Of a stretch of 10,467 bases of DNA, positions 1,083 through 8,119 are shown piece after piece. The stretch spans positions 1-10,467 of the forward strand of contig DMOT01000207.1 of the NCBI GenBank assembly GCA_003456765.1, read 5' to 3'. A program made the translations under genes and the position numbers. The DNA comes from Bacillota bacterium (GTDB lineage: Bacteria > Bacillota > DTU025). Every line of letters starts with the position of its first letter. The first letter of the stretch is position 1. Below the pieces are notes generated by a model, which was not told the DNA's origin, did no database searches, and was given only the letters and a program-made list of their open reading frames with translations.

Positions 1083-1145
1083 TTCGTGACCGCGAAGAGT
1101 ACAATTTTTAGACCCTTTGTGATCGCAAAGGTATAGTTTTTAGAC
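1083..1145 (+). repeat. Imperfect tandem duplication of a 31-bp unit, each with a small dyad
   Basis: Positions 1083-1113 and 1116-1145 align over their whole length with one single-base indel, and every substitution is a transition. Each unit ends in one copy of the 15-mer. Each starts with a short dyad: TTCG (1083-1086) with CGAA (1093-1096) in the first, and TTTG (1116-1119) with CAAA (1126-1129) in the second. The C-to-T change in the left arm is matched by a G-to-A change in the right arm, so pairing is preserved. Confidence 0.75.
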
Positions 1146-1171
1146 TGGGGGAGTCTAAGAACTATACCTTT
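1127..1171. repeat. Long palindrome 1: 20-bp arms, 5-nt loop
   Basis: Left arm AAAGGTATAGTTTTTAGACT (1127-1146) is complementary to 1152-1171 with a single mismatch that would be a G-U wobble in RNA. The loop is GGGGG. The core 1131-1167 is one 15-7-15 repeat pair. It is followed on the + strand by one further T, so a short U-run of four overlaps the arm end. It could therefore also work as a weak terminator for the upstream dehydrogenase, but the geometry shared with palindrome 2 suggests a repeat element first. Confidence 0.85.
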
Positions 1172-1292
1172 TCCCGTCCAACGTTCCAATATATCGGATT
1201 ATGCGCTTCTGTATAGCCATGTACTGTAGGTTCCTGGTTTGATATGCCATAGTCTCCCTGATTATTCCTGGCTGATATTGCCTCCCGGCCTT

Positions 1293-1337
1293 GGGTGTAT
1301 AAAATTTAGACCGGCCCCGTCTAAAAATTATACCCCC
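1293..1337. repeat. Long palindrome 2: 15-7-15 core plus 3-bp flank
   Basis: The core 1297-1333 pairs GTATAAAATTTAGAC (1297-1311) with GTCTAAAAATTATAC (1319-1333), with two central mismatches and spacer CGGCCCC. After one mismatch the flanks GGG (1293-1295) and CCC (1335-1337) extend it. Core length is 37 bp, the same as the core of palindrome 1. No T-run follows on the + strand, so it is not an intrinsic terminator in that direction. Confidence 0.8.
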
Positions 1338-1457
1338 GCGCCAAAAAAGCGACTCATTTTTAGACTATCCCACGAACCCAAACCAGGGGGTACCCTTCCG
1401 CAGCCACTCTGAATGCATAAACCGGCCCTGCTCCCAGCCACTTAAGGCGAAAACGCA

Positions 1458-7252: not shown

Positions 7253-7938
<686 letters not shown>

Positions 7939-7956
7939 ATCTTGCCAAAATAATAG

Positions 7957-7991
7957 TCCCTTTAAACTAGTCCAGTGAGGCTGGCAAGGGA
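7957..7991 (+). promoter_or_regulatory. PyrR-binding anti-antiterminator hairpin, attenuator 2 (pyrR-pyrB gap)
   Basis: The lower stem is TCCCTT (7957-7962) with AAGGGA (7986-7991). After an internal bulge the upper stem is CTAGTC (7967-7972) with GGCTGG (7979-7984), and the loop is CAGTGA (7973-7978). The AGTCCAGTGAGGCTGGCAAG stretch is nearly the textbook PyrR recognition sequence and shares the GTGAGGCT core with attenuator 1. The antiterminator alternative pairs 7973-7983 with 8026-8035 (one G-U, one bulge) and continues with AGGGAA (7987-7992) against TTCCCT (8019-8024). This uses the left arm of the terminator and destroys the PyrR hairpin. Confidence 0.88.
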
Positions 7992-8016
7992 AATTGCGGC
8001 AGCTGGTGCCGATGAG

Positions 8017-8050
8017 CCTTCCCTACAGCTTACTGCGGGGAAGGTTTCTT
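8017..8050 (+). terminator. Intrinsic terminator of attenuator 2
   Basis: CCTTCCC (8017-8023) pairs perfectly with GGGAAGG (8038-8044). Within the 14-base loop CAG (8026-8028) can pair with CTG (8033-8035). TTTCTT (8045-8050) follows. The T-run is shorter than in attenuator 1, so termination may be leakier. It sits 70 bp before pyrB and would let PyrR tune pyrB-pyrC-pyrK separately from pyrR. Confidence 0.75.
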
Positions 8051-8119
8051 GCAAATCAAGGCTGCTGTACGGGTCCTGCCTTCGCAAGGATAGTTACGGG
8101 GCGCAAAGGGGGCGCGACG

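Follow-up and report, generated by a model that had tools for sequence, protein, structure and literature searches.

The six-site repeat blocks analyzed in this work probably constitute the core of a family of non-autonomous transposons derived from IS630-type insertion sequences. The most likely purpose of the array, we infer, is that of a cis-acting nucleoprotein platform.

A six-site array between convergent genes

The window, i.e., the whole analyzed stretch of 10,467 nucleotides, carries one such block in a gap of 544 bp between convergent genes (Table 1), which the first-pass annotation had rightly called gene-free. The annotation had also placed six copies of a 15-mer there, at start-to-start intervals of 32, 22, 144, 22 and 32 bp, and pattern matching in the window returned the same starts and intervals. 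With up to three mismatches, GTATAATTTTTAGAC matched at 1099+, 1131+, 1153-, 1297+ (also 1297-), 1319- and 1351+, that is, in seven rows versus 0.04 expected, and none of 200 shuffles reached seven. Only the site at 1319 is exact, the other five have one to three mismatches. Every 15-mer is itself a near-palindrome of the approximate form GTCTAAA-N-TTTAGAC (a 7-1-7 dyad), and site orientation hence carries little meaning.

Table 1. Coordinates of the array, its boxes and neighboring genes in the window, and loci of related dyads elsewhere
Feature	Position in window or locus	Strand
Zinc alcohol dehydrogenase-like gene	2-913	+
Intergenic gap holding the element, convergent neighbors	914-1457	
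Match to family model R1 (R1 positions 6-383 of 387)	1059-1435	+
Array of six 15-bp near-palindromes	1099-1365	
Site 1, 15-bp 7-1-7 dyad, GTACAATTTTTAGAC	1099-1113	
Spacer of sites 1-2, 17 bp, imperfect dyad (family form TTGCGATCGCAA)	1114-1130	
Site 2, GTATAGTTTTTAGAC	1131-1145	
Site 3, GTCTAAGAACTATAC	1153-1167	
Inner box TATGCGCTTCTGTATA (family form TATGCA-N4-TGYATA), 101 bp past site 1 start	1200-1215	
Site 4, GTATAAAATTTAGAC	1297-1311	
Site 5, GTCTAAAAATTATAC	1319-1333	
Site 6, GACTCATTTTTAGAC	1351-1365	
Outer box GAATGCATAAACC, 45 bp beyond site 6	1411-1423	
Class IV aminotransferase gene	1458-2438	-
Dyad at 3' end of IS630 derivatives	G000:C171, G001:C126, G002:C10, C50, C185	

The window belongs to a genome of 1.7 Mb that is about 73% complete (G000); G001 and G002 are the other two genomes of the genus. 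A genome search, as suggested at first pass, placed 35 of the 36 rows of the 15-mer (up to three mismatches) in ten arrays of G000 according to our tally, compared with 11 rows in total for a reversed control pattern. R1, a sequence-only model built from nine G000 copies with the window copy included, found the same ten loci and, in addition, two fragments (C28, C188) as well as echoes of the palindromic sites on the opposite strand. The window copy reaches 278.5 bits against this model, of which it is itself one of the nine source sequences. Since the layout recurs at other loci, coincidence is excluded; the annotation had denied a chance origin from the equal intervals, and both the 15-mer family and its spacings were indeed found elsewhere.

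R1 also detected the element in G001 and G002, i.e., in both other genomes of genus g1, and in none of the remaining nine genomes of the order (12 genomes scanned with laxer filters). Among 398 genomes of the phylum and 61 relatives no further convincing case appeared under stricter filters, with which weak matches are lost. Two weak matches beyond the genus, in G022 and G142, had the appearance of coding sequence by eye, and nhmmer with the consensus found nothing in either. No match was obtained in viral contigs with one exact pattern, or in plasmids and phages with the window copy as the only query. Judging from the genomes at hand, the family seems restricted to a single genus of uncultured Bacillota. 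Its neighborhoods are diverse: 20 of 28 listed neighbor genes were scanned, 14 matched a Pfam family, and no common neighboring gene emerged among those 20. By a crude ORF call, eight of the 17 copies with ORFs on both sides, including that of the window, lie between convergent genes. The array locus G000:C306 is about 98% identical to G001:C142 over 3 kb (L126, L143), while other orthologous stretches compared were near 78-94% identity; this reflects either a recent transfer or a mis-binned contig. At another locus, G000:C92, a c-di-AMP riboswitch (L031:1872-2003) lies about 280 bp downstream of the array copy and before a sulfate-permease-like gene.

Judged by its core sequence, the window copy is a family member, and an old one without recognizable ends; the motif CCACTTA near 1441-1447 might be its right terminus. 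The annotation had thought of a non-autonomous transposable element with subterminal hairpins. The hairpin part does not apply, as the six sites form an internal core. A counterpart in G001 (C181a) occupies the same gap, and in a third metagenome-assembled genome (DUWJ01000408.1) the corresponding gap measures about 130 bp without the element, at a divergence too high for an exact joint. Across the copies, the spacer between sites 1 and 2 often contains TTGCGATCGCAA, the GCGATCGC core of which is identical to the cyanobacterial HIP1 octamer; this identity is probably coincidental. Reading sites 1 and 2 of the window copy as -35 and -10 promoter hexamers at 17 bp distance was set aside on visual inspection, as the family consensus does not preserve these hexamers. 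Elsewhere in the window, Rfam places a PyrR binding-site leader at 7955-8051, flanked by a pyrR-like gene (7354-7938) and a pyrB-like one; with the pyrC-like gene that follows, this is an ordinary regulated pyrimidine operon.

Terminal repeats, target sites and IS630 ancestry

The transposon part of the first-pass proposal was supported for the family. In G002, two six-site copies are embedded in elements 798 and 818 bp long; ends of this type also delimit six-site elements of G001, which measure 599 and 504 bp (lengths include both TA). These ends read CTAAGTA, counting the flanking C and the duplicated TA. G001 also contains, at C120 (L206), an intact insertion sequence about 1.14 kb long. 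Its ends read CTAAGTAACTTCGA, with the flanking C and TA counted, and its 347-aa transposase (L206:3238-4278) scores 253.6 bits against the NCBIfam IS630 model (cut-off 100) and also matches Pfam DDE_3. The array elements of G001 and G002 share the terminal inverted repeats of this insertion sequence. Five of the seven two-ended elements (C181b, C87, C65, C242 and the insertion sequence of C120) are framed as C[TA]..[TA]G; the exceptions are C9 with T after its right end and C380 with TG at the left. For C185 and C119 the right end was sought and none was obtained.

In agreement with transposition, the six-site element G001:C181b has an exact empty site in the orthologous contig G000:C196, a check the annotation had proposed. 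Flank joining was applied to C181b alone, and its joined flanks align to C196 over 450 bp at 85.6% identity with no gaps across GATC-TA-GAT. With a flank divergence of about 8-9% between the two species, the element would have moved after they split; exact loss in G000 is the less likely alternative. The insertion into CTAG (L154) apparently changed the stop of the upstream gene from TAG to TAA, leaving its reading frame unharmed. The C181b stretch is only about 80% identical to its nearest relative within G001, and by this divergence several lineages seem to have stayed mobile with unchanged geometry.

Remnants of the transposase gene inside the elements also point to an IS630 origin. Antisense pieces corresponding to positions 503-743 of the insertion sequence were found in the right arms of G002:C65 (E 2e-4), C9 (E 2e-7) and G000:C218 (E 0.002), and weak 3'-end pieces in the left arms of G001:C126 (E 0.03) and C181b (E 0.6). 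In G000 the end pattern, with up to three mismatches, matched none of the ten arrays, and no array copy there has both ends; a DDE_3 transposase was found neither in G000 nor in G002, both of which are incomplete. We thus picture elements of 0.5-0.8 kb that would be moved by an IS630-family transposase into TA, mostly within CTAG, and for the copies of the sister species the genome comparison demonstrates such movement at the sequence level.

The annotation had alternatively considered a REPIN-like doublet, i.e., a pair of REP repeats moved by a REP-associated tyrosine transposase (RAYT). Palindromic, paired repeats in an intergenic gap fit this description, and REP, BIME and REPIN elements likewise consist of mirrored pairs of palindromic repeats; their ends, mobility and unit differ, though, from those found here. 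A matching transposase had been asked for as well, and the one obtained is the IS630-family enzyme of C120: Y1_Tnp was not found in the incomplete genomes G000 and G002 and was found in G001 only as a 94-aa frame, so that no intact RAYT turned up in the three genomes. Because IS630-type ends, TA duplication and the empty site already account for mobility, a REPIN origin is extremely improbable.

The intact insertion sequence itself lacks the array and has one subterminal dyad only, GTCTGAGATTCAGAC, about 45 bp from its end and within the last transposase codons (L206:4254-4268). Throughout the three genomes, 52 places match the dyad with up to two mismatches; all but six belong to arrays or to array derivatives, and five of the six mark the 3' end of IS630 derivatives (GTCTGAAATTCAGAC; Table 1). 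These 3'-end dyads give a lead to the array's candidate binding protein. Several points speak against this lead: the five have a common ancestry, the dyad coincides with transposase codons, its score in the insertion sequence was equalled by 78 of 3000 Markov resamples, and a degenerate copy of the insertion sequence (C105) has no dyad.

Fixed geometry and diverged spacers

In type A, the tabulation of spacings gave a centre of 144 bp in 16 of the 17 copies with both triples placeable and of 143 bp in G001:C181a. This count omits copies cut by contig ends (C261, C146, G001:C33, C101) and includes G000:C306, the sixth site of which is interrupted by N; as C306 is nearly identical to G001:C142, these two copies are not independent. 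Within each triple, the dyads are about three and about two helical turns apart. The inner box at +101 and the outer box at 45-47 were found in all 16 type-A copies with both scorable.

This regularity persists among paralogues that are mostly only 60-80% identical. Over the 15 copies used for column, covariation and consensus work, from which C306 and the 143-bp copy C181a were left out, pairwise identity was 72% for the sites, versus 64% for the remaining core sequence. Gaps were counted in 16 copies, C181a included, giving 120 pairs that are not independent of each other: there were 0.57 gap events per 100 aligned columns in the core versus 2.46 in the aligned flanks, at identities of 0.69 and 0.71, respectively. 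The core alignment was gapless in 46 of the 120 pairs and had at least one gap in 74; as the net length is equal, we read the core gaps as mostly length-compensating.

A second subfamily, type B, comprises G000:C258, G001:C169 and G001:C75, with centres of 156, 155 and 155 bp. The centre is thus longer by 11-12 bp, approximately one helical turn. Type B was found via its sites, and its three copies are related and count as one event. Both boxes keep their type-A distances, with the inner box (9-10 of 12 letters) placed 101 bp from one array end and the outer box (9 of 13 letters) 45 bp outside the opposite end; by our own estimate the joint chance of both positions is low, roughly 2 in 141 times 3 in 98. 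The DNA between the sites is less alike. Non-site columns of the left half match type A at 38-43 of 90 positions (shifted control: mean 22, maximum 33), those of the right half at 19-25 of 72 versus 20-30 in the control orientation, and the 60 bp past site 6, around the outer box, at 15-17 versus 12-19 of 60 in the control orientation. The right-half sites match at 32-36 of 45 positions and, because they are palindromes, at 30-35 of 45 in the control orientation as well. From these alignments it still appears that the sites held their position while the DNA between them was largely replaced. A decayed type-B copy, G001:C176, retains three recognizable sites, the distances of which would fit a centre of 154.

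Sites conserved in position with spacers replaced, within the limits of the type-B match, favor the platform reading. The array could instead be functionless, if a progenitor IS630-derived element had chanced to hold duplicated dyads and all later likeness were due to descent only. Transposons can carry passive internal sequence, decayed arrays exist in the family, derivatives with two sites or one occur and the two-site form has spread, and the pairs of the gap count are not independent. However, core indels are only about a quarter as frequent as those of the aligned flanks at similar identity, and the right-half spacers of types A and B are near chance identity with their sites in place. 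We therefore regard a functionless array as doubtful, albeit a reading of some weight.

The shortened derivatives also bear on function. Six further copies of the 798/818-bp element in G002 carry a deletion between sites 1 and 5, with an identical junction that forms a hybrid site 1/5. One junction in six copies points to a single deletion event and subsequent spread, from which it follows that the full array is not essential for movement in G002. G001:C177 has one hybrid-like site, where the array with the orthologous right flank in G000:C283 has six. The right flanks of the two are identical at 132 of 140 positions; on the left, the flank together with the site matches at 75 of 122 and the flank by itself outscores all 200 shuffles, but blastn of the entire left side of C283 gave no match. 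C177 thus arose either by deletion from site 1 to site 6 or by a wider rearrangement, which the poorly matching left flank makes possible. At G002:C65, a second, decayed array fragment (L180:4613-4806), of which only the left part is present, lies about 560 bp downstream of the complete array.

Hybrid sites, both the site 1/5 of the six G002 copies and that of the one-site element C177, are what res- or dif-like recombination sites would leave behind when a recombinase deletes the DNA between them. Slippage or recombination between the 15-bp repeats suffices, though, to explain the two-site deletion, for which a dedicated recombinase is possible; the G002 copies represent one event, and C177 may have been rearranged more widely. 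Moreover, the off-centre inner box has the same orientation relative to the outer box in 16 of the 16 type-A copies scored, so that no inversion was seen. Recombination sites are hence a very improbable explanation.

Another alternative is a structured RNA built of hairpins between neighboring sites. In the window, sites 2 and 3 form an inverted repeat with 20-bp arms, the spacer of sites 1-2 forms, in some copies, a dyad whose sequence varies, and two-sided changes occur at five of 19 pairs of the consensus fold. Pairing 5L-6R exceeded shuffles (covariation 1/300) and 2-5 was borderline (12/300); a few spacer or mirror pairings were high, with Watson-Crick pairing only. Most pairings tested in the 15 copies were, on the other hand, not above shuffles, within-site pairing was without covariation, and the consensus fold over 389 columns amounts to merely -4.9 kcal/mol. 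Rfam at gathering score placed no family on the element in ten sources, the only hits being the PyrR leader and the c-di-AMP riboswitch outside it. An RNA function of the array thus is unlikely.

A candidate nucleoprotein platform among known systems

The annotation had finally suggested a multi-site platform for protein binding. Its geometric side is borne out by a layout that stays fixed despite sequence turnover, and the binding protein is a prediction. The interior of the element would act as a platform of six 7-1-7 dyads, arranged as two mirror-image triples, to which the inner dyad and the outer box keep fixed distances. The dyads might be occupied by dimers of a single DNA-binding protein; candidates are the IS630 transposase, a relative of it, or a host factor. 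The two triples could then be brought together in one complex that would control or assist the element in cis. We may tentatively specify this complex as a fixed-geometry enhancer or repression platform, in which the mirrored triples are looped and a transposase or host-regulator complex controls transposition. It is likewise conceivable, at about the same modest level of confidence, that the whole-turn change of the centre from 144 to 155-156 bp kept the helical phase of such a platform. In bacteriophage lambda, the operators OL and OR are mirrored triples, two groups of three dyads that can be joined by a DNA loop. This analogy concerns layout only, as nothing links the array to a repressor, promoter or phage.

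MITE interiors usually are seen as passive filler. The present elements are a MITE-like IS630 derivative, set apart by size and above all by the fixed six-site platform. With ISY100 and IS630, of the IS630/Tc1-mariner group, the system found here shares an NCBIfam IS630 transposase (that of C120), the inverted ends and the duplicated TA, mostly in CTAG. According to an excerpt of PMC2170065, ISY100 targets TA almost exclusively and duplicates it on insertion, and its transposase, the sole protein required, binds the terminal repeats; the reference list of that paper also names a work whose title concerns preferential transposition into the TA of CTAG. In contrast to the array elements, that excerpt describes no internal platform for ISY100 (PMC2170065), and the intact insertion sequence found here has no array. 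In the open-licence literature, we found no such internal platform for the IS630 family and nothing resembling the array.

The RUP elements of Streptococcus pneumoniae, as described in part of PMC2229807, likewise are non-autonomous and intergenic, with ends like those of a resident IS630 and TA targets, and are thought to derive from IS630-Spn1. They measure 107 bp, whereas the two-ended elements of this work span 504-818 bp and feature a spaced array together with weak transposase-gene remnants. In the same part of that source (PMC2229807), the Correia or NEMIS elements of Neisseria occur in a longer version with an internal IHF site and a shorter one without it. The array elements resemble them, by description, in holding a site for a protein inside the element, which for the array is predicted only; they differ in that one IHF site stands against six dyads and two boxes at fixed distances.

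The exact six-site geometry was kept in diverged lineages as well as in both subfamilies while much of the DNA between the sites changed, and this points to a function in cis within a small transposon. Should the array bind the transposase, this would add a multi-site layer like that of Mu or Tn7 to a family thought to need its ends alone. If it binds a host protein instead, the elements would scatter ready-made operators across the genome.
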